Shown here piece after piece: positions 87 through 13,841 of a stretch of 33,938 nt of DNA. The notes under the pieces were generated by a model. It saw nothing but the letters and a program-made list of their open reading frames with translations, was not told the origin of the DNA and searched no databases. The DNA lies in the NCBI GenBank assembly GCA_039680175.1, contig JBDKTO010000109.1, forward strand, positions 1-33,938. The letters are read 5' to 3'. Position numbers and translations under genes: made by a program. The stretch is from Veillonellales bacterium (lineage in GTDB: Bacteria > Bacillota > Negativicutes > JAAYSF01). The stretch's first letter is position 1. Every line of letters starts with the position of its first letter.

Positions 87-245
87 ATGAAAATCGAAGC
101 TAACGGTGTGAAGCCGGAAGTGGTAGCGGCTATTGCTGCTGCTGTATATGCAATGGTGGGTACTCGCAAACTTGCGTTACGCATCAAACAAACTAGTAAT
201 ATCTGGGCCCTTACCGGACGCCAGAAAAACATGAATTGTCATTAA
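87..245 (+). CDS. mmdE: small methylmalonyl-CoA decarboxylase subunit, epsilon/delta C-terminal type
   Basis: This 52-residue ORF starts at ATG 87 behind AGGAAAGG, 15 bases after the mmdA stop. It has an alanine-rich, mildly hydrophobic helix (about residues 12-24) and the ending IWALTGRQKNMN, which resembles the tail of the small delta/epsilon (OadG-like) subunits of sodium-pumping decarboxylases. In Veillonella these small subunits stabilise the complex between the carboxyltransferase and the membrane subunit. There is no separate N-terminal membrane anchor, so it looks like the epsilon form. The family call rests on the tail motif and the position between mmdA and mmdC. Confidence 0.65.
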   Translation: MKIEANGVKPEVVAAIAAAVYAMVGTRKLALRIKQTSNIWALTGRQKNMNCH

Positions 246-262
246 TGGGTACCAATAGAGCA

Positions 263-290
263 GGCTGTTATCCGGTATGGGGTAACTGCC
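263..290 (+). other. intercistronic RNA hairpin between the epsilon-like and biotin-carrier genes
   Basis: Bases 263-273 pair with 280-290, with one T-T mismatch, one G-T pair and a 6-base loop. No T-run follows, so it is not a terminator. It lies 35 bases before mmdC and might protect the mRNA or adjust the amount of biotin carrier made; that role is inference. Confidence 0.4.
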
Positions 291-324
291 ATGAGCATTC
301 TATATATAATGGAGGAATAATAGG

Positions 325-714
325 ATGAAAAAATTTAATATTTCTGTTAACGGTGCTTCTTATCAAGTTGAAGTAGAAGAAGTAGCTGCCGCCGCAGCCG
401 TTGCTCCTGCTGCCAAGGTTGCAGCTCCTGCAGCGAAACCCGCAGCTGCCCCTGCTGCTCCTGCAGCAAAACCGGCTGCCGCTGCTGTAGTAGGTGCTGG
501 AGATACGGCTATCAAAGCGCCGATGCCTGGCAAAATTGTAAGAATCGTAGCGGAAGCTGGCAAGGCAATTAAAAAGGGTGAAGTAATCCTGATTCTGGAA
601 GCTATGAAGATGCAGAATGAAATCACCGCTCCTGTTGCCGGTACCTTGAAATCGGTTAACGTAAATCCGAACCAGGGAGTAAAACCTGGCGAGATTATGG
701 CAGTAATTGGCTAA
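325..714 (+). CDS. mmdC: biotin carboxyl carrier subunit (gamma) of methylmalonyl-CoA decarboxylase
   Basis: This 129-residue protein carries carboxybiotin between the carboxyltransferase and the decarboxylase or acceptor subunit. The C-terminal biotinyl domain (about residues 60-129) contains the EAMKM motif at 92-96, with Lys95 as the expected biotinylation site. Residues 20-58 form a flexible alanine/proline linker, typical of swinging-arm carriers. The length fits MmdC/GcdC-type carriers. ATG 325 follows the ribosome site GGAGGA. Unlike in Veillonella, the membrane beta subunit gene (mmdB) does not follow; a terminator comes immediately after, so mmdB must lie elsewhere or be absent. Confidence 0.92.
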   Translation: MKKFNISVNGASYQVEVEEVAAAAAVAPAAKVAAPAAKPAAAPAAPAAKPAAAAVVGAGDTAIKAPMPGKIVRIVAEAGKAIKKGEVILILEAMKMQNEITAPVAGTLKSVNVNPNQGVKPGEIMAVIG

Positions 715-720
715 TTAAAG

Positions 721-759
721 ATACGTGCGGTTGTAACCACAGCCGCACGTATTTTTTTT
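721..759 (+). terminator. Rho-independent terminator after mmdC
   Basis: The 10-base arms 721-730 and 743-752 pair perfectly and are followed by a run of eight T. This closes the mmd operon and separates it from the cobO-mutase operon. Confidence 0.92.
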
Positions 760-891
760 ATGAAAAAAATAAAATATGAAAATTCGGCGATTACTGATAA
801 ACAAAGGTTTTTCCCAAAAAGCAGCAGGATATGAAAAAGAAATGGTGAAAATAACAAAAACAAATAACGATATTGTCAGAAAAGGAGCTGA

Positions 892-1446
892 TTGCTGCTA
901 ATGGAATCAATGCAGAAAGCTCTGCCGGGATGCGGCCTAGTGATGGTGATTACCGGCAACGGCAAAGGCAAGACAACTTCGGCTTTTGGCCAGGCACTGC
1001 GTGCTATTGGGCAGGGTTATAAAGTTTGTATGATTCAGTTCATGAAGGGCAGAAAATACGGCGAAGTTTTGGCGGCGGAGAAGTGGCTGCCGCAGTTTAC
1101 CATTATTCAATCCGGTCTTGATACGTTCGTAATGCGGGACGATCCGTCTCCGGTGGATGTCGATCTTGCCAAACAGGGATTTGAAAAGGCTAAAGAAGCG
1201 ATTTACAGCAAAGAATATAATATGGTGATATTAGATGAACTTAATATTGCCGTTGATTTTAAATTGATTCCCGAGGAAGAAGTTTTAGCGTTAATAAAAA
1301 ATAAGCCGCCGGAAATCGATTTGGTATTAACCGGGCGCTATGCTTCCGCTAAAATCAGAGACATCGCCGATACGGTCAGCGAAGTGACAGAAGTCAAGCA
1401 TCATTATTATGCCGGGAAGCAAGAAAGGGCAGGCATCGAATATTAA
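892..1446 (+). CDS. cobO: cob(I)alamin adenosyltransferase, CobO/BtuR type
   Basis: The enzyme transfers the adenosyl group of ATP to cob(I)alamin-type corrinoids, making adenosylcobalamin. The P-loop GNGKGKTT lies at residues 22-29, and the CobO-type segment VILDELNIA follows further on. The protein is 184 residues, a normal length. TTG 892 is chosen because GGAG ends at 887; the ATG at 901 would leave a long 13-base gap. The gene directly precedes an adenosylcobalamin-dependent mutase, so it probably supplies the cofactor for that enzyme. No cobalamin riboswitch is visible upstream. Confidence 0.9.
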   Translation: MLLMESMQKALPGCGLVMVITGNGKGKTTSAFGQALRAIGQGYKVCMIQFMKGRKYGEVLAAEKWLPQFTIIQSGLDTFVMRDDPSPVDVDLAKQGFEKAKEAIYSKEYNMVILDELNIAVDFKLIPEEEVLALIKNKPPEIDLVLTGRYASAKIRDIADTVSEVTEVKHHYYAGKQERAGIEY

Positions 1447-1504
1447 CAACTGGGAGAACCGGGGAATCCGGTATCGCGATATCATATCTGGGGGGGAATT
1501 CCGA

Positions 1505-3184
1505 TTGTATACAAAAGAATCATTGGCTAAAGCGAGCCAGGCAAGGACAAACTGGGAAGCGGCAGTGGAGAAAACCGTTGCAAAACATAGCGATCAAAAA
1601 GAACAGTGGACGACGGTGTCTGATTTGCCGATAAAGCGCATTTATGGTCCGGAGGACATTCAAAATACCCAGTTTGAAGATATTTCCTACCCCGGGCAGT
1701 TCCCTTTTTTGCGGGGAAATCAGCCAACCGGGTATCGGGGAAAGTATTGGACATTTCGCATGTTTTCCGGCATGGGAACGGCGGTGGAAACGAATAAACG
1801 CTGGCATTATCTCTTAGCTACCGGCCAAACCGGGTTGAGCACGGCCTTCGATTTTCCCACGTTGATGGGGTATGATTCCGATTCGTCCAAAGCCAGAGGT
1901 GAAGTGGGAAAATGCGGCGTGGCGATTGATACTATCGAGGATTTCCAGGATTTGATCCAGGGCATTCCTTTGGATAAAATCAGCACATCCATGACGATTA
2001 ATCCGCCGGCCACCATATTATGGGCAATGTACTGCGCTGCTGCCCAGCAGCAGGGCGTGCCTCTGACGAAAATCAGCGGCACGATTCAAAATGATATCCT
2101 GAAGGAATTTATTGCTCAGAAGACGCTGATGTGTCCGCCGGAGCCTTCGGTCAAGCTCATTAGCGACACAATTGAATTCGGCACGAAGTACGTTCCGAAA
2201 TGGAATACCATCAGTATCAGCGGCTATCACATCCGGGAAGCGGGGGCCACTGCCGTTCAGGAACTGGCGTTTACACTTCGGGACGGCATTGAATATGTGG
2301 AAGATGCCATTCAGCGGAAAGGGCTGCAGGTGGATGAGTTTGCTTCCCGCTTATCCTTCTTCTTTAATTCCCATATTGATTTCTTTGAAGAAATTGCTAA
2401 AATGCGGGCTGCCCGCCGGATGTGGGCCAAGATTATGAAAGAGCGCTTTGGGGCGAAGGATCCCCGATCCTGCTGGATGCGGTTTCATACTCAGACTGCC
2501 GGCTGTTCATTGACGGCGCAGCAGCCTTACAATAATGTGATTCGGACCGTTACCGAAGCATTGGCTGCTGTTTTGGGAGGAACCCAGTCTCTCCACACTA
2601 ATTCACTGGACGAGGTCTTGTGTCTGCCTTCCGAACATGCCGTACAGATTGCTCTCAGGACACAGCAGATTTTGGCGGAAGAAACCGGCGTTGCCAATAC
2701 GATTGATCCTTTGGCCGGTTCCTATTTTGTGGAGTCGCTGACTAATCAAATGGAAGAAAAGGCCTGGGAATATATTCATAAAATTGATGAAATGGGCGGC
2801 ATGATCAAGGCTATCGAAAAGGGCTATCCTCAGCTGGAAATTTCCGACGCAGCTTATCGCTTTCAGCAGCAAATTGATGCTAAGGAGAAAGTCATGGTTG
2901 GCGTGAATAAATATGTGGAAGAGGATGAAAAAGTCGACATTCCCCTTGTGACTATTGATGAATCGGTGGAGGCAGAGCAGTTGAAGCGGCTGGCGGCTGT
3001 GAAGAGAAAACGTGACGGCCGTACAGTTGCTGCCTGTTTGAAGGATATTGCCAATGCCTGCAAGAACGGCGATAATGTCATGCCATATTGCATTGAAGCG
3101 GTTAAAAATTATGCCACCGTTCAGGAAATCTGTGATGTATACCGGGAAGTCTATGGGGAATACCGCGATCCGGGAATATTCTAA
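1505..3184 (+). CDS. B12-dependent acyl-CoA mutase large subunit (methylmalonyl-CoA mutase family, isobutyryl-CoA mutase-like pocket)
   Basis: This is the substrate-binding TIM-barrel subunit of an adenosylcobalamin-dependent acyl-CoA mutase, 559 residues with the start used here. TTG 1505 is preferred: a G-rich ribosome site (1490-1496) lies 8 bases before it and families start near MYTKESL, whereas the open frame from 1409 overlaps cobO. Family motifs are clear: GQTGLS (108-112), GTIQNDILKEF (192-202) and SISGYH with His242. Aligned without gaps to Propionibacterium methylmalonyl-CoA mutase (offset 2), Tyr89 becomes Phe87 and Arg207 becomes Gln205, as in isobutyryl-CoA mutase. The carboxylate-binding arginine is therefore missing, and methylmalonyl-CoA is an unlikely main substrate. 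Butyryl/isobutyryl-CoA is the best guess; another branched acyl-CoA is possible. Confidence 0.88.
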   Translation: MYTKESLAKASQARTNWEAAVEKTVAKHSDQKEQWTTVSDLPIKRIYGPEDIQNTQFEDISYPGQFPFLRGNQPTGYRGKYWTFRMFSGMGTAVETNKRWHYLLATGQTGLSTAFDFPTLMGYDSDSSKARGEVGKCGVAIDTIEDFQDLIQGIPLDKISTSMTINPPATILWAMYCAAAQQQGVPLTKISGTIQNDILKEFIAQKTLMCPPEPSVKLISDTIEFGTKYVPKWNTISISGYHIREAGATAVQELAFTLRDGIEYVEDAIQRKGLQVDEFASRLSFFFNSHIDFFEEIAKMRAARRMWAKIMKERFGAKDPRSCWMRFHTQTAGCSLTAQQPYNNVIRTVTEALAAVLGGTQSLHTNSLDEVLCLPSEHAVQIALRTQQILAEETGVANTIDPLAGSYFVESLTNQMEEKAWEYIHKIDEMGGMIKAIEKGYPQLEISDAAYRFQQQIDAKEKVMVGVNKYVEEDEKVDIPLVTIDESVEAEQLKRLAAVKRKRDGRTVAACLKDIANACKNGDNVMPYCIEAVKNYATVQEICDVYREVYGEYRDPGIF

Positions 3185-3218
3185 TTTATTTTTTAGCTGA
3201 CTTGAGGAGGTAAGTTTG

Positions 3219-3623
3219 ATGCCAAATAGAACGATTCGTATACTCATCGCCAAACCCGGCCTTGACGGCCATGACCGCGGCGCCAAAGTATTGGCCAGAT
3301 GTTTTCGTGATGCCGGCTTTGAAGTCATTTATACGGGCTGTCATCAAAGCCCGGAGCAGGTAGCTGCCGTTGCGATTCAGGAGGATGTTGATGTAGTGGG
3401 GCTAAGCTGTCTGTCGGGTGCCCATAAATTTCTTTTTCCCGAGGTAGCCAAGCTGCTCAAAGAGCAGGGAGCGGAAGATATCATTGTGATCGGCGGCGGC
3501 ATTATTCCCGAACAGGATATGCCGGCGTTGTATGAAGCCGGTCTGAAAGCGATTTTTACGCCGGGAACCACATTGGAATCCATTGTTGAGTGGATTAATA
3601 CCCATGTGACGCCGCAGGTGTGA
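3219..3623 (+). CDS. cobalamin-binding small subunit of the acyl-CoA mutase
   Basis: This 134-residue protein is a stand-alone B12-binding domain that pairs with the large subunit just upstream. It shows the base-off/His-on cobalamin motif: Asp16-Gly-His18 and Gly21 (DxHxxG), a downstream SxL (LSCLSG), and the glycine pair of IVIGGGI. His18 should be the lower cobalt ligand. ATG 3219 is chosen because AGGAGG ends 8 bases before it; a TTG immediately upstream is too close. Split large and small subunits are typical of isobutyryl-CoA mutases and of archaeal or clostridial methylmalonyl-CoA mutases. Confidence 0.92.
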
Positions 3624-3627
3624 CAGT

Positions 3628-4629
3628 ATGAAGGAATTAAGCAGGAAAGTATTAGCAGGAGACATTCGTGCGGCCTCCCGGCTGATTCGCAATCTGGAAG
3701 ATCAAATACCGGATACTCAGTTGGCAATGCGGGAGCTATTTACCGCAGCCGGCAGTTCTCATGTGATTGGTATTACCGGGGCGCCGGGCGCGGGGAAAAG
3801 CACCTTGACGGATGAACTGATTGCCGCCTATCGTAAAAGGAATAAGACGATTGGGGTGCTGGCGGTGGATCCAACCAGCCCTTTTTCCGGCGGGGCCATT
3901 TTGGGCGACAGAATTCGTATGCTGCGCCATTCCGAAGACAAAGGTGTATTTGTCAGAAGTTTGGCAACTAAAGGCTCCCTGGGCGGTTTGTCCAAAGCGG
4001 TTGGCGAAGGAATTCATGTGATGGAAGCCTTAAAAAAAGATAAAATCGTGGTGGAAACCTGCGGCGTAGGCCAGCAGGAGGTGGATATTATTAATCACGC
4101 CCATACGGTCGTCGTGGTTCTTGTCCCGGGCATGGGCGATGAGATTCAGGCGATCAAGGCCGGGCTAATGGAAATTGCCGATATTTTTGTGATCAACAAA
4201 GCGGACCGGGACGGCGCCGGCAAATTGTATCAGGAAGTATTGAATATTGTGGCAATGGCGAAGAAAAGCGGCGAAAGTTCGCCGACTGGCTGGACGATAC
4301 CGATTGTGAAGGTGGAAAGCGTACTTCAGCCTCATGCGTTTGCCGAGAGTGTTGAAGTTTTAGGCAATAAAATTGAAGAGCATTATCAATACCTGATTAA
4401 AAGCAAGGCACTGGTCGCTCGTAAGCGCCGGAAAGCAAAAGCGGAGCTGAATGAAGCATTGTGGGCTGCTCTGTTCCAACCGATAGTAAACAAATTGAAC
4501 GGAGATGGAGAAATGGAGCAGATGGTAGATCAATTGCTGAACCGGGAAACGGATCCCTACACTTTGGCGGAAGAAGTGGCCCGGCGGTATATTAAAACAG
4601 TGAACAACGGAAAGGACGGCGGCAAATGA
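3628..4629 (+). CDS. meaB: MeaB/ArgK-family G-protein chaperone of the B12-dependent mutase
   Basis: MeaB proteins are GTPases that gate loading of adenosylcobalamin into acyl-CoA mutases and protect or rescue the enzyme from inactivation. Here the Walker A motif GAPGAGKS is at residues 51-58. The family segments AVDPTSPFSGGAILGDRIRM and ETCGVGQQEVD and the guanine-recognition motif NKAD follow. The length of 333 residues is normal. The gene starts four bases after the small-subunit stop and overlaps the next gene by ATGA, so it is translated as part of the mutase operon. Homologues serve both methylmalonyl- and isobutyryl-CoA mutases, so it does not settle the substrate. Confidence 0.93.
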   Translation: MKELSRKVLAGDIRAASRLIRNLEDQIPDTQLAMRELFTAAGSSHVIGITGAPGAGKSTLTDELIAAYRKRNKTIGVLAVDPTSPFSGGAILGDRIRMLRHSEDKGVFVRSLATKGSLGGLSKAVGEGIHVMEALKKDKIVVETCGVGQQEVDIINHAHTVVVVLVPGMGDEIQAIKAGLMEIADIFVINKADRDGAGKLYQEVLNIVAMAKKSGESSPTGWTIPIVKVESVLQPHAFAESVEVLGNKIEEHYQYLIKSKALVARKRRKAKAELNEALWAALFQPIVNKLNGDGEMEQMVDQLLNRETDPYTLAEEVARRYIKTVNNGKDGGK

Positions 4630-5816
4630 ATTTTACCCCGAAAACAGAAATTGCGATGAGGACCGGGAAACTGCAGCAAAAAATAATTGAGCAGGGACTT
4701 GACGGAGCACTCATTTTTTTAAATAGTGATTTATTTTACTTTACCGGCACGGTACAGACTTCATTTTTGTACATACCGGCTGCCGGGGAGCCGGTATTGA
4801 TGGTGAAAAAAGGGCTGCGCCGCGGCAGTGAAGAGTCGCGGTTGAAGAATATCGTTTCCATCCACAGTCCCAAGAAAATACCTGAAGCCCTGGCTGGATT
4901 TGGCTTCACCGATCTAAGCAAAATCGGACTGGAGCTGGACGTATTGCCGGTTAATCTTTATAAACTGTACCGTAAGATTTTTCCTCAGGCCGAGTTGAGC
5001 GATATTTCTCCGGCAATTAAAGCGATTCGCGCTATAAAATCTCCTTATGAAATCGAGCTACTGAAGCAGGCTCTGGTTGTATCCGACCAGGCTTTTTCCA
5101 CCGTGCCTTCTTTACTGCGGGAAGGCATGACGGAGATCGAGCTGGCAGCATTGTTTGAAGCGGAGCTGAGGAAACGCGGCTTTGCCGGCTGCTGCAAAAT
5201 GCGGGCTTTCAACCAGGAGTTTTTGTTTGGCGATATTTGTACCGGCAGCAGCGGCTTTTACCCCAGTTACTTTGACGGTCCTGTCGGCGGAACCGGTGTT
5301 TCCGTCTCACATCCCAAAGGCGCGGGCTGGAAAAGAATCAACCGGAATGAAGTCGTTTATATTGACTATACCTCCATTATTGAAGGCTATACCGGAGATC
5401 AGACACGGATTTTCTGTATCGGTGAGCTTTCCCCCCGGATGGTGAAGGCCTTTGAGGCTGCCTTACAGATTGAAGCCGCAGTGCTTAAAGCCATGAAACC
5501 GGGGACCTTGGCGGAGGAGCCTTATTTACTGGCGCTTAATCTGGCGGAGGAACTGGGATATAAAGATTATTTTATGGGCTATAAGGACGATCAGGTTAAA
5601 TTCCTGGGGCACGGGCTGGGACTGGAACTGGATGAATGGCCTATATTCGCCAAAGGTTTCAAGCTTCCGATAGTTCCGGGAATGACCTTTGCCCTTGAAC
5701 CTAAATTTGTCTTTCCCGAAGGGGCCATCGGCACGGAAAATAGCTTTGTCATGACGGAAACAGGTCCTGAATATTTAAGCATCACTCCGGAAGTTATTAC
5801 TTATCTGAAAGTGTAA
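4626..5816 (+). CDS. M24-family metallopeptidase/hydrolase (Xaa-Pro peptidase-like)
   Basis: This 396-residue protein has the two-domain build of prolidases and creatinases: an N-terminal creatinase/prolidase domain (about 1-150) and a C-terminal pita-bread domain. All five metal ligands are present: Asp247, Asp258, His329 (in GHG), Glu358 and Glu371, so it should be an active dinuclear metal enzyme. The start ATG overlaps the meaB stop (ATGA), indicating translational coupling. A peptidase has no obvious role in an acyl-CoA mutase operon. The M24 fold also includes non-peptidases such as creatinase and ectoine hydrolase, so a small-molecule amide hydrolase is possible. The substrate is unknown. 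Confidence 0.85.
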   Translation: MNFTPKTEIAMRTGKLQQKIIEQGLDGALIFLNSDLFYFTGTVQTSFLYIPAAGEPVLMVKKGLRRGSEESRLKNIVSIHSPKKIPEALAGFGFTDLSKIGLELDVLPVNLYKLYRKIFPQAELSDISPAIKAIRAIKSPYEIELLKQALVVSDQAFSTVPSLLREGMTEIELAALFEAELRKRGFAGCCKMRAFNQEFLFGDICTGSSGFYPSYFDGPVGGTGVSVSHPKGAGWKRINRNEVVYIDYTSIIEGYTGDQTRIFCIGELSPRMVKAFEAALQIEAAVLKAMKPGTLAEEPYLLALNLAEELGYKDYFMGYKDDQVKFLGHGLGLELDEWPIFAKGFKLPIVPGMTFALEPKFVFPEGAIGTENSFVMTETGPEYLSITPEVITYLKV

Positions 5817-5841
5817 AAATAACAAGAAGGAGAACTTATCA

Positions 5842-6822
5842 TTGAGCAAACCAAAAAGGATTACTTTAAAAGAAGCCGGAGCTTTGGTGCATGACGGGGA
5901 TCAGATCACTTTTAGCGGTTTTACCATCTGGCGGCGTCCGGTGGCTCTTTGTTATGAACTGATTCGTCAGGGGAAAAAGGATCTCCACTTATTCGAGGTA
6001 CAAGGCGGCTATCACAGTGATCTATTAGTGGGTGCCGGTTGCGTAAAAATATGGGAAGGCGCCTGGATGGGTCAGGAGATGCTGGGGAAGATAGGCGAAA
6101 ACTTAGCCAGGAAGCAAATCGATGGTGATATCCTGGTGGATGATTACAGTCATGGGCATACAGTAGGGCGTTTAATGGCCGGGGCGCTGGGGCTGCCGTT
6201 TTTTCCCTGCGCACTGGCCATGGGAACCGATATTTTAAATCCGGAATATGATCAACTGGCCAATGCCGGGTTAAGAGACGGCAAGCATCGGAATATTCCG
6301 GCCAAAAAATATGTAATAGCTCAGGATCCGTTTTTCGGCCGGAGCGATTGTCTGCTGCTGCCGGCGGTCAATCCGGATGTGGCTTTAGTCTATGCGCCGA
6401 TTGTCGGCGATGAGGGAACGGTCCGGGTCCTGTCTCAAAGTTACAATGACGCCGAAGTCATTAAAGCTGCCAAAACGGTGATTGTTATTTGTGAAGAAAC
6501 TGTTCCCGACAGCTATCTGCGCAACGATCCGGCAGCTAATTTGGCTTCCGGTTATGAAATTGACTATGTGGTGGAATGCCCCTGGGCTGCCCATCCTACC
6601 GGGTCGCAGTTTTACTATGATTCGGATGCCGATTTTTTAAAATCCTATAACCGGAATGTGCGGGATCAGAAGGCCTTTGATGAATTTGCCGATCAATGGA
6701 TCTTTGGTGTGAGCTGCCATGAAGAATATTTGGAAAGATTGGGGACGAAGCGGCTGGAAGGATTGCGGGCCAGCTCGATTATGGGTTATTCCAGCAGGAT
6801 TAAAAGGGGGACAAGAGCATGA
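5842..6822 (+). CDS. CoA-transferase subunit A (glutaconate CoA-transferase-like, family I)
   Basis: This 326-residue protein resembles the A subunit of glutaconate-type CoA-transferases, with an early glycine-containing segment (DGDQITFSGF) and later segments such as ALAMGTDIL and LLLPAVNPDVALVYAP. Together with the next gene it should move CoA between acyl-CoA and free acids. TTG 5842 is used because AAGGAG lies 9 bases before it; no better in-frame ATG is near. It follows the M24 gene by 25 bases and overlaps subunit B by ATGA. The partner acids cannot be read from the sequence; location suggests the acyl-CoA handled by the mutase. Confidence 0.85.
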   Translation: MSKPKRITLKEAGALVHDGDQITFSGFTIWRRPVALCYELIRQGKKDLHLFEVQGGYHSDLLVGAGCVKIWEGAWMGQEMLGKIGENLARKQIDGDILVDDYSHGHTVGRLMAGALGLPFFPCALAMGTDILNPEYDQLANAGLRDGKHRNIPAKKYVIAQDPFFGRSDCLLLPAVNPDVALVYAPIVGDEGTVRVLSQSYNDAEVIKAAKTVIVICEETVPDSYLRNDPAANLASGYEIDYVVECPWAAHPTGSQFYYDSDADFLKSYNRNVRDQKAFDEFADQWIFGVSCHEEYLERLGTKRLEGLRASSIMGYSSRIKRGTRA

Positions 6823-7631
6823 AATACTCCGCTGAATACTGCAAGCCCGGTGAGTTTCAACCCATTGATCTGCTGGCGGCTGCGGCCGCCCGGGAAGTTT
6901 GCGACGGCGATGTCGTTTTTGCCGGTACAGGACTTCCCATGCTGGCTATTACCTTGGCACAGCATGAACAGGCTCCCAATGCCGTATGCATCTACGAAGG
7001 CGGGAGCATTGACGGGAGGCCGCTGAGTTTACCGACGTCTGTCGGCGATGCCCGCTGCACGTACCAGGCATCCAGGGCTTCCGGCTTGTTTGAAGCTTTT
7101 TACGGTCAACTGCATTCCGGTTATGTGGATCTTGGTTTTTTAGGCGGCGCTGAAATTGACAAATACGGCAATGTAAATTGTACGGTAATCGGCGATTACA
7201 ATCAGCCGAAAAAGAGATTTACCGGCAGCGGCGGTAATGCCGATATTTGTTCTTATGCGAGACGAACCGTATTTATTATGGTACAGGAGAAGCGCCGCTT
7301 TAGGGAAGAAGTTGATTATGTCACGTCGCCCGGATGGCGGGTTAAAAAATGGCCGTCAGGGGAATGGGCTTCCAAGCAGGAGGTGTACGGGTCGTATTTT
7401 AAGGGTGGAGTTTCCACTGTGATTACGGATATGGCCGTTTTTCGTTTTGATGAAACCGGCGAAATGTACCTGGATACCGTCCATCCCGGCTTTTCAGTGC
7501 AGGATGTGCTGGATCATGTTGATTTTAAGCTGAATGTAGACCGGGTATCAGGCGAGACGCTGCCACCAACGAAGAAACAAGTGGAATTACTTTACCACGT
7601 TATTGATCCGGAAGGGATTTTCCTGCCATAA
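6819..7631 (+). CDS. CoA-transferase subunit B (glutaconate CoA-transferase-like)
   Basis: This is the 270-residue catalytic partner of the preceding subunit. In family I CoA-transferases a glutamate of the B subunit forms the CoA thioester intermediate. Here Glu60 in IYEGG aligns with the common YESG segment and is the likely catalytic residue, which speaks against the related IpdAB-type hydrolases that lack it. Another family segment is LGFLGGAEIDKYGNVN. ATG 6819 overlaps the stop of subunit A. A hairpin over its stop codon, without a T-run, ends the cluster. The substrate is not determined. Confidence 0.85.
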   Translation: MKYSAEYCKPGEFQPIDLLAAAAAREVCDGDVVFAGTGLPMLAITLAQHEQAPNAVCIYEGGSIDGRPLSLPTSVGDARCTYQASRASGLFEAFYGQLHSGYVDLGFLGGAEIDKYGNVNCTVIGDYNQPKKRFTGSGGNADICSYARRTVFIMVQEKRRFREEVDYVTSPGWRVKKWPSGEWASKQEVYGSYFKGGVSTVITDMAVFRFDETGEMYLDTVHPGFSVQDVLDHVDFKLNVDRVSGETLPPTKKQVELLYHVIDPEGIFLP

Positions 7632-7650
7632 GCGGATTATGCCGCTTATG
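7627..7650 (+). other. hairpin spanning the stop codon of CoA-transferase subunit B
   Basis: Nine-base arms 7627-7635 and 7642-7650 pair perfectly around a 6-base loop. No T-tract follows, so this is not a canonical Rho-independent terminator. It could stabilise the 3' end of the operon mRNA or act as a weak or Rho-assisted stop. Confidence 0.5.
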
Positions 7651-7675
7651 GTGATAATTTGCATAGTTCTCCCTA

Positions 7676-7705
7676 TTTACATCTCATGGGTAAATAAGGT
7701 AAAAT
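7676..7705 (+). promoter_or_regulatory. sigma-A-type promoter upstream of a leader/small RNA and the DUF4321-maf genes
   Basis: A -35 box TTTACA (7676-7681) and a -10 box TAAAAT (7700-7705) are separated by 18 bases. Transcription would start near 7712. The nearest downstream signal is a terminator at 7797-7829, before the first gene at 7887. Confidence 0.6.
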
Positions 7706-7711
7706 AATAAT

Positions 7712-7829
7712 GGCTGTGAGTCAAGTGTCGGGGAAATGGTTCACCTGCTTTAGGTTTTGATTTTGCAAAATAGTATGGCGGGGGAATTTTTATACCAAAA
7801 GTCCTTGCTTTATGCAAGGATTTCTTTTG
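7712..7829 (+). ncRNA. putative short leader or small RNA ending at an intrinsic terminator
   Basis: The stretch between the promoter at 7676-7705 and the terminator at 7797-7829 would give an RNA of about 118 bases. Small internal hairpins are visible: ACCT/AGGT near 7743-7755 and the palindrome ATTTTGCAAAAT near 7760-7771. No convincing ORF is seen and I recognise no known riboswitch class. It may be an attenuated leader of the DUF4321-maf-radC-mreB cluster or an independent small RNA. Confidence 0.3.
7797..7829 (+). terminator. intrinsic terminator/attenuator before the DUF4321 gene
   Basis: TCCTTGC (7802-7808) pairs with GCAAGGA (7814-7820) around TTTAT, followed by TTTCTTTT. An A-run before the left arm can extend the pairing. 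It stands between a good promoter and the first gene at 7887, so it may act as an attenuator. Confidence 0.75.
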
Positions 7830-7886
7830 TTTGTTGTAGAAGCATTACTGCATCGGTAGGGCAGAGTAAAACTGGGAGGTAATAGA

Positions 7887-8159
7887 TTGAGAAGCAGCAG
7901 AAGCACAAATTATGGTATAATGGCTCTATTTTTAATTACCGGTGCGGTTTTAGGCGGTATTCTGGGAGAATTTATCGCGGGCTCAGCGACTTTGTCAGGA
8001 CTGGCACCTTATTTTGTAAAAACGTTTCCCGTTTTTGATATGCCGCCGGTTACCATAAATTTGTATGTGATTAAGCTGGTCGTGGGGTTTGCCTTATATC
8101 CGAATTTAATCAGTATTTTGGGAATGCTAGTAGCAATTCTGTTGTTTCGGCGGTTCTAG
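7887..8159 (+). CDS. DUF4321 small membrane protein
   Basis: This 90-residue protein has two hydrophobic segments, about residues 9-27 and 58-87, and a short loop between them. It matches the pattern of the DUF4321 family, which is often found next to maf in Firmicutes. Function is unknown; it should sit in the cytoplasmic membrane. TTG 7887 is chosen because the strong site GGGAGGT (7874-7880) lies 6 bases upstream. It precedes maf by 32 bases and is probably cotranscribed with it. Confidence 0.75.
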   Translation: MRSSRSTNYGIMALFLITGAVLGGILGEFIAGSATLSGLAPYFVKTFPVFDMPPVTINLYVIKLVVGFALYPNLISILGMLVAILLFRRF

Positions 8160-8191
8160 CATTTCAGCTGTAGATAAACCGGGAGGTTACT

Positions 8192-8761
8192 ATGACAATC
8201 ATTCTGGCGTCCGCTTCACCAAGACGGCGGGAGTTATTAGAGCAGGTGGGCTGTGAATTCAGCATTATTACCAGTGATGTGGAAGAAGACAATACCCGTC
8301 AGATGATGCCGGCGAAGCTGGCAGTAAGTCACGCTCAGGCGAAAGCTTTGGCGGTGGCGTCAACCCTGTCCCGGCAATCTGTCGTGATTGGCGCGGATAC
8401 GATAGTGGTCTTTGGCGGAAAAGTGTACGGTAAGCCCGCGGATGGGGCGGATGCGCGTCGCATGCTGCTGAATTTAGCCGGAAAAGATCATCAGGTGATT
8501 ACCGGAATTGCTGTAGTGAAGGGTGAAAATCTTTGGACGGACGTTGCCGTTACTGCTGTACGGCTCGCCGACCTGACTGCGAAACAAATTGAAGCATATG
8601 TTAATACCGGTGAGCCTATGGACAAGGCCGGTGCTTATGCCATTCAGGGAAAGGGAGCTCTTTTTGTGGAATCCATCCAGGGTTCGTATTCCAATGTTGT
8701 GGGGCTGCCTTTAAAGACATTAGCGGATTTGCTGAAAAAGGCGGGTGTCAGTTTATTGTGA
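8192..8761 (+). CDS. maf: Maf nucleoside triphosphate pyrophosphatase
   Basis: Maf proteins hydrolyse nucleoside triphosphates such as dTTP and UTP, or modified nucleotides, to monophosphates, and overexpression affects septum formation in Bacillus. The N-terminal signature ASASPRRRELL and the segments GADTIVV and GKP, with later AYAIQGKGALFVE, are clear. The length of 189 residues is normal. ATG 8192 follows GGGAGGT. Its last codons overlap the radC start (GTGA), so the two are coupled. The neighbourhood with mreB and min genes is typical. Confidence 0.95.
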   Translation: MTIILASASPRRRELLEQVGCEFSIITSDVEEDNTRQMMPAKLAVSHAQAKALAVASTLSRQSVVIGADTIVVFGGKVYGKPADGADARRMLLNLAGKDHQVITGIAVVKGENLWTDVAVTAVRLADLTAKQIEAYVNTGEPMDKAGAYAIQGKGALFVESIQGSYSNVVGLPLKTLADLLKKAGVSLL

Positions 8762-9462
8762 ACGATACTGTTAAGCCACTTATGATGAAGGAACTACCGG
8801 AGGATGAGCGCCCGCGGGAGAAAATGCTTATCCACGGGGCACAGGCTCTGAGTAATGCGGAGTTATTAGCGATACTGCTTCGTACCGGGACAAGACAGGA
8901 GCCGGTGGTCAGTCTGGCTCAGCGGATTTTAAAAAAATTTGAGGGGGACGGACTGTCGGCCCTGGCTGCAGTCAAGCCTCAGGAATTAAGCCAAGTCAGA
9001 GGCGTGGGACCGGCAAAGGCAGTCACCGTTATGGCTGCAATTGAATTGGGAACGCGGCTTCAATCCCAGGCAGCTGCCCGCCGTCCGGTGATTCGCTCGC
9101 CGCAGGATGCGGCGGATCTCATGATGGCCCGGCTGCGTTATGAATCCCGGGAGCACTTTATGGTGTTGCTGTTGTCAACGAAAAATCATGTGATTGCAAC
9201 ATCGGTAATATCAGTAGGCAGTTTAAACGCTTCGATTGTTCATCCCCGGGAATTATTTCGGGAAGCGATTTGTTATTCGGCGGCAGCGGTTATTTTGATC
9301 CATAATCATCCCAGCGGCGATCCTGCGCCAAGCCAGGAAGATATTGTTTTGACGAAAAAATTGGTGGAAGCCGGGCAATTGTTAGACATTACTGTTTTGG
9401 ATCACGTAATTATTGGGGATAATAGGTATGTCAGCCTAAAAGAAAAGGGAATAATAGGATAG
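8758..9462 (+). CDS. radC: RadC/YsnA-family JAMM domain protein
   Basis: This 234-residue protein has an N-terminal helix-hairpin-helix region (VRGVGPAKAV) and a C-terminal JAB/MPN metalloprotease-like domain. The metal motif HxHx7SxxD is intact: His182, His184, Ser192 and Asp195. The family was once linked to DNA repair, but its actual activity is uncertain. GTG 8758 overlaps the maf stop by four bases. The maf-radC-mreB order is conserved in Firmicutes. Confidence 0.94.
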   Translation: MNDTVKPLMMKELPEDERPREKMLIHGAQALSNAELLAILLRTGTRQEPVVSLAQRILKKFEGDGLSALAAVKPQELSQVRGVGPAKAVTVMAAIELGTRLQSQAAARRPVIRSPQDAADLMMARLRYESREHFMVLLLSTKNHVIATSVISVGSLNASIVHPRELFREAICYSAAAVILIHNHPSGDPAPSQEDIVLTKKLVEAGQLLDITVLDHVIIGDNRYVSLKEKGIIG

Positions 9463-9483
9463 CATTTGAGTTGCCGGCTTTAG

Positions 9484-10554
<1,071 letters not shown>

Positions 10555-10577
10555 GATAGGAGAGAGGAGCCGAAATT

Positions 10578-11495
10578 GTGGGAGCTTTTAACAAAAAGAC
10601 GGTCGTCTTGGCGGTGACTATAGTAACCGTCTTTTTGCTGGCCATTTCTGCGGTCCATGGTAAATATCAGTTTTCCTATATGGAGAAAGTGATTACAACG
10701 ATTTTGGCACCGGGTGAATATGTTTTTTCTCGGATAGGGTTTGGATTCCGGCGAGTCGGATTATTTACCGGTGAAATGATGACGGTATATCGTGACAATC
10801 AGACGTTACGGTCGGAAAATGAACAACTCCGTCAAAATAATCTAAATATTAGCGAGATCGTGGCAGAAAATACGAGGCTGCAGGCGATGCTTGCTTATAA
10901 GACGGGGACGCCGCAATTTGATTTAGTGCTGGCGAAAGTGATTGCCCGGGATCCGGGAACCTGGACCAGCATTATTGTAATCAATCGTGGCTCTGCCGAT
11001 GGCATTACCAAGGATATGCCGGTGGTTACACCTCAGGGGCTGGCGGGGAATGTAATCCGTGTTTACAGCAATACGGCTAAAGTGCAGTTGCTTCTGGATC
11101 CTCGCAGCGCGGTGGGAGCCTTGGTTCAGCGGCCGGAATCGAGAGTGGCGGCTATTGTGGAAGGCAATGGGGCGAGTCCTTTTGTCCCAAGAATGGTGAA
11201 TGTGGCCCGGGATGCCGATATTATTAACGGCGATCAGATTATTACCTCCGGTTTTGGCGGGATTTATCCGAAAGGGCTGCTAATAGGGGAAGTCGTTGAT
11301 GTAGTTAATGAGGAAGGCGGTTTATTAAAATATGCTATTCTGAAGCCGGCAGTGGATTTTGATCGACTGGAAGAAGTCTTTGTGATTATACGTTCACGGG
11401 AACCGGTACCTGTTTTACCGGCAGCTCCCTCTGCGCCCCAGGGAAGTCAAAATGGACAAAAGACACTTTTGCCGCAAGGGGCGAAAGGCCAATGA
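10578..11495 (+). CDS. mreC: rod-shape determining protein MreC
   Basis: MreC links cytoplasmic MreB to the peptidoglycan synthases outside the membrane. The 305-residue protein has a single N-terminal membrane helix (about residues 7-24). A coiled-coil stretch (about 65-105, rich in Glu, Asn and Leu) comes next, then the beta-rich domain with VINRGSADGI and DPRSAVGALVQ. The tail is rich in proline, alanine and glutamine. GTG 10578 follows AGGAG by 8 bases. Its stop overlaps the mreD start. Confidence 0.95.
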   Translation: MGAFNKKTVVLAVTIVTVFLLAISAVHGKYQFSYMEKVITTILAPGEYVFSRIGFGFRRVGLFTGEMMTVYRDNQTLRSENEQLRQNNLNISEIVAENTRLQAMLAYKTGTPQFDLVLAKVIARDPGTWTSIIVINRGSADGITKDMPVVTPQGLAGNVIRVYSNTAKVQLLLDPRSAVGALVQRPESRVAAIVEGNGASPFVPRMVNVARDADIINGDQIITSGFGGIYPKGLLIGEVVDVVNEEGGLLKYAILKPAVDFDRLEEVFVIIRSREPVPVLPAAPSAPQGSQNGQKTLLPQGAKGQ

Positions 11496-11977
11496 TCGTG
11501 CTGATGTGGACAGGAGTACTCTTAGTGGCTGTTATTTTGCAGTCAACCATTTTGCCGCTGCTTGCAGTTCACGGCGTGTGGCCTGATTTATTGCTGCTGG
11601 TAGTAGTGTCCTCCAGCTTGTTGCTGGGCAAAGAACATGGTGTGGGAATTGGCTTTTTTGCCGGTTTGATCCAGGATTTGGCCTCGGGAAATATTTTTGG
11701 CCTGAATATCCTTTCTAAGCTGGCTACCGGTTATTGTTTCGGACTGGCGGAACGCAAGGTATTTAAGGATCATATTTTGCTGCCGGTAATAATGGTCGCA
11801 ATGGCCACGTTGTTTAATGGCGCCATTATGCTGGCGGTGCTGTTTGTATTGGGTTATCAGGTGGACATTTTACCGGCGGTGCGGCATAAGATACTGCCGC
11901 TTCTGTTCTATAATATGGTTTTTTCCATTCCAATTCATCAGATTGTCTATCGTTTAAGCCGAATACAAAAAAACTGA
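11492..11977 (+). CDS. mreD: rod-shape determining protein MreD
   Basis: This 161-residue, strongly hydrophobic protein has about five membrane-spanning segments and the family-like pattern WPDLLLLVVV...FFAGLIQDL. MreD is the integral membrane partner of MreC in the elongasome. The ATG at 11492 overlaps the mreC stop (ATGA), and the PBP2 gene follows 31 bases later. The call relies on topology, length and position as well as these motifs. Confidence 0.93.
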   Translation: MIVLMWTGVLLVAVILQSTILPLLAVHGVWPDLLLLVVVSSSLLLGKEHGVGIGFFAGLIQDLASGNIFGLNILSKLATGYCFGLAERKVFKDHILLPVIMVAMATLFNGAIMLAVLFVLGYQVDILPAVRHKILPLLFYNMVFSIPIHQIVYRLSRIQKN

Positions 11978-12008
11978 TTCATGTATGCAGGAGAGGAGGG
12001 CGATTGCC

Positions 12009-13841
12009 GTGCAGGGTAAGCCTTCAAGCCATCGGTTAGATATATTGGCCTTCATTGTGATTTTCGTATTTTTAGCGCTTATCGGTCGATTGAGTTATCT
12101 GCAGGTTGCACAGGGCAGCTATTATGGGCGGCTGGCAGATGGCAATCGCATCCGTCTTATTCCGGCTATGGCGCCGCGAGGTATTTTTTATGATCGCAAC
12201 GGGATACCTTTAGTGTCCAATCGTCCTGGCTTCACCGTATCTATTTTACCGATAACCGGTCCGGTGGCGGAAGACGTTATTACAAATTTAGCGGAGATAC
12301 TGGGAATCGGCAGTGATGAGATTCACGCAAAACTGGCACAGCGTTCAGGTTCTTTTGAGCCGATTCGCATTAAGAATGATCTTGGACCGGAAATTGTCAC
12401 TAAAATTGAGGAGCGGCGCAATGAGCTGCCGGGTGTAGTCATTGAAATTCAGCCCATCCGCAATTATGTCAATAATGAACTGGGTGCCCATATTTTTGGC
12501 TATGTTAGTGAAATCAACGATGTTGAGCTGAAGCAAGGAAAAGCCCAGGGATATAAATCCGGCGACATTATTGGCAAATTCGGCCTGGAGAAGGTATATG
12601 ATCATGAATTGAGGGGAGTCGACGGCGGCGGCCAGGTGGAAGTCGATGTTACCGGCCGGCCGGTGCATGTGCTGGGGAAGAAGGAACCGGTTCCCGGCGA
12701 TAATCTGGTTCTAACCATTGACAGCAGGATACAAAAAGCCGCTGAAAAAGCAATCGACGAGCAGCTCAGCTATCTGCAGACGAAAACCGAGAATGTGAAC
12801 GCTAAGGCTGCGGCTGCGGTAGTCATTAATCCGAAAACCGGTGAGATACTGGCTATGGTAAGCCGGCCGACATTCAATCCCAATTTGTTTTCCGGCGGAA
12901 TTTCTTCCAAGGATTGGAATGCCTTAAACAGCAATCCTTATCATCCCATGGATAATAAGGTTATTTCCGGGGAATATCCCCCTGGATCTACATTTAAGAT
13001 TGTTACCGGAGCTGCCGCGTTGGAACTGGGGAAAGTGACGCCGGAAGAAAAAATTTTAGATACCGGTCATCACTGGCTGATTCCTAAGGGGAATTCTGAG
13101 GGAGAAGCTCTGGGATGGATTGATTTTAAAGTAGCTCTGGCAAAATCGGATAACGTTTATTTTTACGAAATGGGCAATCGTCTGGGGATTGACAACCTGG
13201 AAAAATATGCCCGGATGTTTGGCCTGGGAGCGGTAACCGGCATCAATCTGCCGGAAGAAACGGACGGATTGGTGGCCAATCGGCGTTACAAAGAGAAGGT
13301 ATATAAAGAAGACTGGTATTTATCGGAAACTTTTGATGCTGCTATTGGTCAGGGGTTTCAACTGGTAACACCGCTTCAAATGGCAGTATTAATGGGCGAA
13401 GTGGCCAACGGAGGTCATCGTTACCGTCCGTATTTGGTTAGCAAAATTACCTCTGCCAGCGGGGATCCCTTAAAAATTTTTGCCCCCGAAGAACTGGGGC
13501 AGATCACTCTTTCCGATGAAACACTTACTCTGATTCGCCAGTCACTGCGGGAGGTGGCAGAGGAAGGGGGTACGGCGGGCAGTCTGTTTCATGATTTTCC
13601 TATCACCATAGCCGGTAAAACCGGTACGGCGGAAAACCCTCACGGTCGGGATCATGGCTGGTTTGTGGCCTATGCACCCTTTGATGATCCCCGGGTAGCG
13701 GTTGTGGTTATTGTTGAACAGGGAGGATTTGGTACCTCTTCTGCTGCTCCTATTGCCAAAAAGATATTAGAGGCGGCTTTTAATGTTAATCAGCCGGTTA
13801 CCGAGGCTGTCAAAGTCTATCGACCGAACACTGCAATATAG
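12009..13841 (+). CDS. mrdA: penicillin-binding protein 2, elongation-specific transpeptidase
   Basis: This class B penicillin-binding protein cross-links peptidoglycan during cell elongation with RodA. It has an N-terminal membrane helix (about residues 12-30), a dimerisation domain starting PRGIFYDRNG, and a transpeptidase domain with Ser327-Thr-Phe-Lys, Ser380-Asp-Asn and Lys537-Thr-Gly. GTG 12009 is chosen because GGAGGG ends 8 bases upstream. An in-frame ATG at 11985 has no ribosome site and would add eight residues. The resulting 610 residues fit the family. Confidence 0.95.
   Translation: MQGKPSSHRLDILAFIVIFVFLALIGRLSYLQVAQGSYYGRLADGNRIRLIPAMAPRGIFYDRNGIPLVSNRPGFTVSILPITGPVAEDVITNLAEILGIGSDEIHAKLAQRSGSFEPIRIKNDLGPEIVTKIEERRNELPGVVIEIQPIRNYVNNELGAHIFGYVSEINDVELKQGKAQGYKSGDIIGKFGLEKVYDHELRGVDGGGQVEVDVTGRPVHVLGKKEPVPGDNLVLTIDSRIQKAAEKAIDEQLSYLQTKTENVNAKAAAAVVINPKTGEILAMVSRPTFNPNLFSGGISSKDWNALNSNPYHPMDNKVISGEYPPGSTFKIVTGAAALELGKVTPEEKILDTGHHWLIPKGNSEGEALGWIDFKVALAKSDNVYFYEMGNRLGIDNLEKYARMFGLGAVTGINLPEETDGLVANRRYKEKVYKEDWYLSETFDAAIGQGFQLVTPLQMAVLMGEVANGGHRYRPYLVSKITSASGDPLKIFAPEELGQITLSDETLTLIRQSLREVAEEGGTAGSLFHDFPITIAGKTGTAENPHGRDHGWFVAYAPFDDPRVAVVVIVEQGGFGTSSAAPIAKKILEAAFNVNQPVTEAVKVYRPNTAI

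Follow-up and report, generated by a model that had tools for sequence, protein, structure and literature searches.

What does a protein with the M24 metallohydrolase fold do in an operon devoted to acyl-coenzyme A (acyl-CoA) chemistry? The question is raised by a contig of a Veillonellales bacterium (JBDKTO010000109.1, assembly GCA_039680175.1), which we analysed as one stretch of 33,938 nucleotides, here called the window. In it, the gene for a 396-residue M24 protein follows meaB, which encodes the G-protein chaperone of a B12-dependent mutase, and is itself followed by genes for a CoA-transferase. A preliminary description had called this protein active-looking and had thought a small-molecule amide worth considering as its substrate. 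The explanation that we favour, with middling confidence, is that the gene encodes a metallohydrolase of the M24B group, as yet uncharacterised, whose active site has been rewired and which recurs in isobutyryl-CoA mutase operons and is accessory to the B12-dependent metabolism of butyrate and isobutyrate.

The metal site and the residues around it

The open reading frame is not a chance one, since a 350-genome sample of the Negativicutes contains 20 other genomes with orthologues of 62–76% identity. Its product belongs to the M24 superfamily, scoring 133.1 bits with the Pfam model Peptidase_M24 (PF00557; cut-off 23) and 78.8 bits with Creatinase_N (cut-off 22). As had been described, its start overlaps the stop of meaB: the ATG (4626–4628) and the TGA (4627–4629) share the motif ATGA, in the context GGCGGCAAATGAATTTT, and an AAGGA-like ribosome site precedes the ATG. 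The overlap is not conserved. Among the stretches harboring M24 relatives that we used for comparison (denoted by L-numbers), the called open reading frames leave a gap of 24 bp between the two genes in L040 (MeaB ends at 6312 and M24 starts at 6337) and of 51 bp in L044 (6268 and 6320).

In an alignment with PepP from Escherichia coli K-12 MG1655, the five metal ligands D247, D258, H329, E358 and E371 correspond one to one to D260, D271, H354, E383 and E406, and all five are kept in 47/47 members of the tree clade described below and in 41/41 further relatives. To this extent the protein is indeed active-looking; the rest of the catalytic shell, however, is changed. In particular, the catalytic residues His243 and His361 of PepP are replaced by Lys231 and Asp336, so that the histidines of an Xaa-Pro peptidase are lacking, and in an alignment with the prolidase of Pyrococcus furiosus the same two residues stand opposite His192 and His291. 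In the alignments of the five best solved relatives, too, His takes the place of Asp336, and none of the sequences in the PDB scores like a member of the clade. Normal histidines are found within the same genome, which has six M24 matches: two methionine-aminopeptidase-like proteins (L002 and L003) and one Xaa-Pro peptidase (L001) retain them, and of the other two matches one aligned badly (L005) and one was not resolved (L006).

These switches define a subfamily. At positions 336, 360 and 369, 47/47 clade members have Asp, Lys and Gly where 15/15 ordinary Xaa-Pro peptidases have His, Gly and Arg, a comparison from which two long-branch, badly aligned proteins (L005 and L029) and four rows with Thr at position 336 (L067–L070) were excluded; position 231, by contrast, varies within the clade (Gln, His, Asn, Ala, Met, Ile, Tyr or Lys). 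An insertion at about residues 188–236 is mostly missing from the ordinary peptidases. In the 41 further relatives, which are 33–71% identical to the window protein and come from 40 Desulfotomaculia stretches (L107–L146), Lys360 and Gly369 are always present and position 336 is Asp in 25, Asn in 16 and His in none. The occurrence of Asn in 16/41 argues against an acid or base being essential at this position, for which, judging from the residues found there, a hydrogen-bonding role suits better. The Asn336 members, which include L108, L112, L119, L123 and L141, are unchanged in the rest of the site and so provide a natural test of what the residue does.

A different M24 group, with Thr at the site of Asp336, is carried on plasmids of Vibrio and Rhodobacterales (L068, L069 and L070). 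Its genes adjoin one for a diaminopropionate ammonia-lyase together with, variously, genes for an amidohydrolase, an M20 aminoacylase and an Asp/Glu racemase, clusters that resemble an ectoine-type utilisation cluster.

In a maximum-likelihood tree of 68 distinct M24 proteins (L107–L146 not being included), the window protein and 46 others form one clade with support 100/98 and a stem branch of 1.24, and the window protein lies outside the ordinary Xaa-Pro peptidases that were compared. Family models agree in that the protein falls far below the cut-offs for PepQ (NF040821, 110.6 bits against 630), for ectoine hydrolase (TIGR02993, 26.9 bits against 613) and for the dimethylsulfoniopropionate (DMSP) lyase DddP (NF043017, 24.4 bits against 600). 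The residue switches together with the separate clade make an ordinary dipeptidase unlikely; the protein is very probably not an ordinary Xaa-Pro dipeptidase, and a role other than that of a peptidase, which had been put forward as worth considering, gains strength from the same two observations.

The fold does not discriminate further. An AlphaFold2 model built from 14 sequences finds its best matches, tied at Z scores of 30–32, among an X-Pro aminopeptidase, prolidases, the ectoine hydrolase DoeA and creatinase, so that, as far as the fold goes, the protein could as well be a small-molecule enzyme as a peptidase. The likeness to the prolidase and aminopeptidase P group (M24B) extends over the whole fold (Z of 27.6 to P. 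furiosus 1pv9, 31.6 to Thermotoga maritima 2zsg and about 25 to E. coli PepP) and includes the Creatinase_N and M24 domains with the metal ligands in register; from that group the window protein differs in its missing histidines, in the exchanges of Gly for Lys360 and of Arg for Gly369, in the insertion and in its place in the tree. The small-molecule enzymes share the fold at 18% identity each, namely the ectoine hydrolase EutD/DoeA (6twk; Z of 30.3 over 347 residues) and creatinase (1chm; Z of 30.1 over 354 residues), a likeness at the level of the fold only.

Might the protein nevertheless be a divergent peptidase that uses a variant mechanism, with Asp336 in the place of His361, to cleave Xaa-Pro or other dipeptides, as a passenger of the operon or as a supplier of amino acids for branched-chain acids? 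By sequence it is closest to the Xaa-Pro dipeptidase and aminopeptidase families, prolidases share in the tie of Z scores, and a gene for an M29 peptidase lies near three of its relatives (L108, L112 and L125, called with Pfam on L108 only). Set against this are the loss of both histidine equivalents, the constancy of Asp at position 336 in the clade and of Asp or Asn in the further relatives, the low PepQ score and the separate clade; we consider a divergent peptidase unlikely without being far-fetched.

A second possibility is suggested by DddP, which shows that the chemistry of M24 proteins can be a different one when an Asp stands near the metals: work on RdDddP (PMC4108388) favours as catalytic base the invariant Asp377, six residues past the metal ligand His371. 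By analogy, Asp336 might lie over the metals as a base that acts on a beta-substituted acid to give an acrylate-type product. Compared with these published positions rather than by an alignment, Asp336 lies seven residues past His329, an offset that differs by one; moreover, whereas the Asp of DddP is invariant, Asp336 gives way to Asn in part of the wider subfamily, and Asn could not serve as a base. Together with the low score on the DddP model, this makes a lyase most improbable. DddP was not among the best 50 fold matches, which excludes nothing. Hardly more probable is a protein without catalysis, which like Spt16 would bind either metal or another protein, for instance MeaB or the mutase. 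The loss of the catalytic histidines would fit such a role and the N-domains of Spt16 share the fold (Z of 24–27), but a scaffold would have no need of the five metal ligands that all clade members and further relatives keep.

We consider it likely that the protein is a catalytic metallohydrolase, and we lean slightly towards a small molecule as its substrate. We envisage that the pita-bread fold and its two-metal site have been retained while the catalytic shell was rebuilt. Two divalent metals held by the five ligands would activate water or hydroxide, with E358 as the putative general base, and the pair of Asp336 and Lys360, replacing the histidines that hold the carbonyl of a peptide, would accommodate a different substrate, small and polar, for which an amide or another C-N compound is the likeliest candidate. 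In the source genome the enzyme probably serves B12-dependent butyrate and isobutyrate metabolism as an accessory.

Recurrence in isobutyryl-CoA mutase operons

Genes for BtuR, the large and small mutase subunits, MeaB, the M24 protein and the two CoA-transferase subunits (CtA and CtB) follow one another on the same strand of the window (Table 1), and the M24 gene is probably co-transcribed with the mutase operon in the source genome. Methylmalonyl-CoA mutase has Tyr and Arg at the two sites where isobutyryl-CoA mutase has Phe and Gln. The window mutase has F119 and Q237, which we take to be the isobutyryl-CoA mutase signature, and 28 relatives are alike in this respect (one of them being cut off before the first site). 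The mutase does not score best on the model for isobutyryl-CoA mutase: the large subunit reaches 661.3 bits with the methylmalonyl-CoA mutase model (cut-off 876) and 336.1 bits with the IcmF model (cut-off 1500), which represents the fused form, and so stays under both cut-offs. We call it isobutyryl-CoA mutase-like because of these two residues and because of a published cluster, Slip_0757–0760, of the isobutyrate degrader Syntrophothermus lipocalidus (PMC5017805).

That cluster (PMC5017805) resembles the window in its large and small mutase subunits, adenosyltransferase and MeaB-like protein; the description names no M24 gene, whereas in the window M24 and CoA-transferase genes come after meaB, and the word "peptidase" occurs 0 times in the main text. 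For the isobutyrate producer Clostridium luticellarii, the mutase and a neighbouring CoA-transferase are remarked upon in PMC7764203, whose main text contains "Xaa-Pro" 0 times. The gene order in this organism (L061) is BtuR-MutL-MutS-MeaB-M24-CtA-CtB, as in the window. Among the papers searched, none contains both "isobutyryl-CoA mutase" and "Xaa-Pro", and none of the titles listed concerns an M24 gene together with this mutase.

The tie of the M24 protein to the acyl-CoA operon, which had been noted for the window, is borne out by surveys of three groups. Among 63 Syntrophomonadia genomes, scored for a mutase of at least 75% identity and for a member of the M24 subfamily at an E value of 1e-60 or better, the M24 protein was detected in 16/21 genomes with the mutase and in 0/42 without it (Fisher p 6e-11, a value that, like others of its kind here, ignores shared descent and incomplete genomes). 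In 8 of these 16 the M24 gene is in the mutase operon or within 10 kb of it, in one case on the evidence of gene order on the two sides of a contig break, and a frequent order is BtuR-MutL-MutS-MeaB-(second B12-binding protein)-C_GCAxxG protein-MtnA-like protein-small protein-M24 (L087, L089, L090, L091 and L092). The M24 proteins of those loci are 41–46% identical to that of the window and, with the one of L094, form a clade of their own (support 100/100); this identity and this clade argue that the linkage does not go back to one recent transfer.

In the Negativicutes sample, a mutase of at least 87% identity occurs in five genomes, and in 5/5 of them an M24 gene is present and adjoins meaB (the window, L040, L044, L084 and L085). 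In the Desulfotomaculia, 3 of 113 genomes have a mutase of at least 81% identity (two more match at 59–60%), and exactly these three, and no other, have an M24 protein of at least 70% identity, encoded 2–4 kb from the mutase gene. When the branches of the tree were labelled for linkage to the mutase, seven changes were needed, of which at least six are forced by well-supported branches, gains and losses counting alike; the label includes L059, in which some 24 kb separate M24 from the mutase but CoA-transferase genes adjoin it. These findings demonstrate that the link of M24 to the acyl-CoA mutase operon is real and recurrent, and they make a functional tie between the two fairly likely.

Not every part of the proposed connection fared equally well. 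It had been suggested that the M24 enzyme might release the acid used by the CoA-transferase. Subunit A of the CoA-transferase is present in 5/5 Negativicutes genomes with both mutase and M24, and at an E value of 1e-60 it is missing from the other 18 of the 23 genomes that are positive for M24. The CoA-transferase thus tracks the mutase and not M24, which argues against M24 as the source of its acid, and the suggestion is further weakened by L128, where M24 is in a mutase operon and no CoA-transferase is encoded in the 16 kb read.

A relative 41% identical to the window protein, with Asn336, is encoded in L141 between a different mutase (38% identical) and MeaB (40%). This locus (234–9103) contains a second type of B12-dependent acyl-CoA mutase, with Leu at the Tyr/Phe site; besides MeaB, its neighbours are a MaoC-like protein, a sigma-54-type regulator and an alcohol dehydrogenase-like protein, names that are partly taken from the sequence.

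Stand-alone relatives and B12 genes

Most of what weighs against an accessory to the mutase comes from genomes in which the two genes do not occur together. Five of the 21 Syntrophomonadia mutase genomes are without an M24 member at E 1e-60, and the mutase (at least 87% identity) is absent from 16 of the 21 Negativicutes genomes (among the 350) that carry a close M24 orthologue of at least 62% identity. In the Desulfotomaculia, 81/113 genomes have members of the subfamily and only 3 have a close mutase; 78 of the 110 genomes without a close mutase have members, and the association for the subfamily as a whole is not significant (p 0.56). Furthermore, no common neighbour was found among the loci of the stand-alone relatives, and some of these are the ones that have the M29 peptidase gene nearby. 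On the side of the protein, the wider subfamily does not always keep Asp336, and the structural model is of middling confidence (mean predicted local distance difference test score 73.1, predicted template modelling score 0.74) and poor at residues 188–233. The M24 subfamily is, then, not specific to the mutase, and so its function is a more general one for which isobutyryl-CoA mutase operons often have a need.

The neighbours of the stand-alone genes are diverse. By Pfam they include acetolactate synthase, an Fe-hydrogenase-like protein, a dicarboxylate symporter, a papain-like protein, response regulators, GDPD, hyp genes and the M29 peptidase, and by reading of the sequence only, threonine synthase, glycogen synthase, phosphofructokinase and dnaE. 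In two loci (L120, 6510–13401, and L143, 385–7267) the M24 gene ends a hyp run for NiFe-hydrogenase maturation, directly after a hypE-like gene, with HypD identified by Pfam and the other names taken from the sequence.

Several relatives are, in addition, found near genes for B12. CbiM-CbiQ cobalt uptake genes adjoin M24 in L129 (3575–7657) and in L130 (5502–10820), together with an ATP-binding cassette ATPase that is CbiO-like by position, and L130 has two tandem copies of M24. Genes for BtuF, BtuC and CobT lie downstream of M24 in L123, those for CobT-BtuF-BtuC-CobU lie upstream of it in L106, and CbiK (L065) and a B12-dependent methionine synthase (L134) are encoded near it elsewhere. Individually these cases are suggestive. 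They raise the possibility of an enzyme for corrinoid maintenance that hydrolyses a by-product derived from cobamides or adenosylcobalamin, for example a corrinoid amide, and thereby keeps the B12-dependent mutase supplied or repaired. CbiZ, for one, acts on an amide of a corrinoid. BtuR and MeaB are likewise encoded in the mutase operons that contain M24, and in Syntrophomonadia these operons frequently add a further B12-binding protein, a redox protein of the C_GCAxxG type and an isomerase resembling MtnA.

We counted how often a B12 gene, from a set of 13 that was chosen after the loci had been looked at, lies within 5 kb of M24: this is so in 20/83 loci, as compared with 1/40 stretches drawn at random from genomes belonging to the same groups. 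(The count omits L053, L054, L058, L060, L084 and L085 as duplicates, whereby two mutase-linked genomes are lost, and L105, which has no M24; the window and L066 were outside its range and L052, an ordinary peptidase, was below threshold, leaving the 83 loci, some with cut flanks.) Once the 13 mutase-operon loci are taken away, however, the difference is no longer significant (7/70 against 1/40, p 0.25), and two of the seven are not free of a mutase: the genome of L106 has the mutase operon at a distance of 10 kb, and L141 has the other mutase. The rarity of close orthologues in the Negativicutes likewise counts against a maintenance function, which we regard as quite improbable.

In the mutase operons of L087, L089–L092, L106 and L128, a gene for an MtnA/IF-2B-like protein is accompanied by one for either a second B12-binding protein or a redox protein of the C_GCAxxG type, and these genes could be a kit for the salvage of 5'-deoxyadenosine and the repair of B12.

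A more far-reaching form of the accessory role is that the Asp(Asn)336/Lys360/Gly369 subfamily represents a new class of enzymes, not peptidases, needed by B12-dependent acyl-CoA mutases, which would remove or recycle an amide by-product of the substrate, of CoA or of the corrinoid and which would have been recruited into mutase operons several times independently. We think this generalization unlikely. Automatic annotation probably labels the subfamily as Xaa-Pro peptidases, to judge from the more distant plasmid relatives that bear that name; if its members are not Xaa-Pro peptidases, a subfamily spread through anaerobes, and present in most Desulfotomaculia sampled, is mislabelled. That it recurs in mutase operons suggests a step or accessory, as yet without a name, in the production and breakdown of isobutyrate, which would matter for anaerobic digestion and for chain-elongating bacteria, C. 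luticellarii among them.

Features of the window

The coordinates of the operon are collected in Table 1. Relatives of the large mutase subunit align only from about residue 22–33, so that the true start of this gene, as read from such alignments, probably lies in 1472–1505 and not at the listed position.

Table 1. The mutase operon of the window and the insertion that marks the M24 subfamily
Feature	Position	Strand	Remarks
BtuR/CobO-type corrinoid adenosyltransferase	907..1446	+	
Mutase large subunit, isobutyryl-CoA mutase-like by F119/Q237	1409..3184	+	listed start overlaps btuR
Mutase small (B12-binding) subunit	3216..3623	+	
MeaB, G-protein chaperone of B12 mutase	3628..4629	+	TIGR00750, 293.9 bits against cut-off 240.75; stop overlaps M24 start
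M24B-fold protein, 396 residues	4626..5816	+	ATG start; metal ligands D247, D258, H329, E358, E371; shell K231, D336, K360, G369
Subfamily insertion, about residues 188–236 (MRAFNQ...FDGPVGG...PxGAGWK)	5187..5333	+	before first metal ligand; low model confidence at 188–233
CoA-transferase subunit A (CtA)	5842..6822	+	
CoA-transferase subunit B (CtB)	6819..7631	+	

Upstream of the mutase run, a biotin carrier protein (325–714) resembles the gamma subunit of methylmalonyl-CoA decarboxylase, with 131.7 bits, under the cut-off of 200. In E. coli K-12 (L187, 3516–12001), the ordinary pepP gene lies about 6 kb from scpA, which encodes a methylmalonyl-CoA mutase; this is probably a coincidence, PepP belonging to a different M24 group. 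Downstream of the operon, the window continues with an ordinary cell-shape block (8192–13841) for Maf, RadC, MreB, MreC, MreD and PBP2, named from the sequence.

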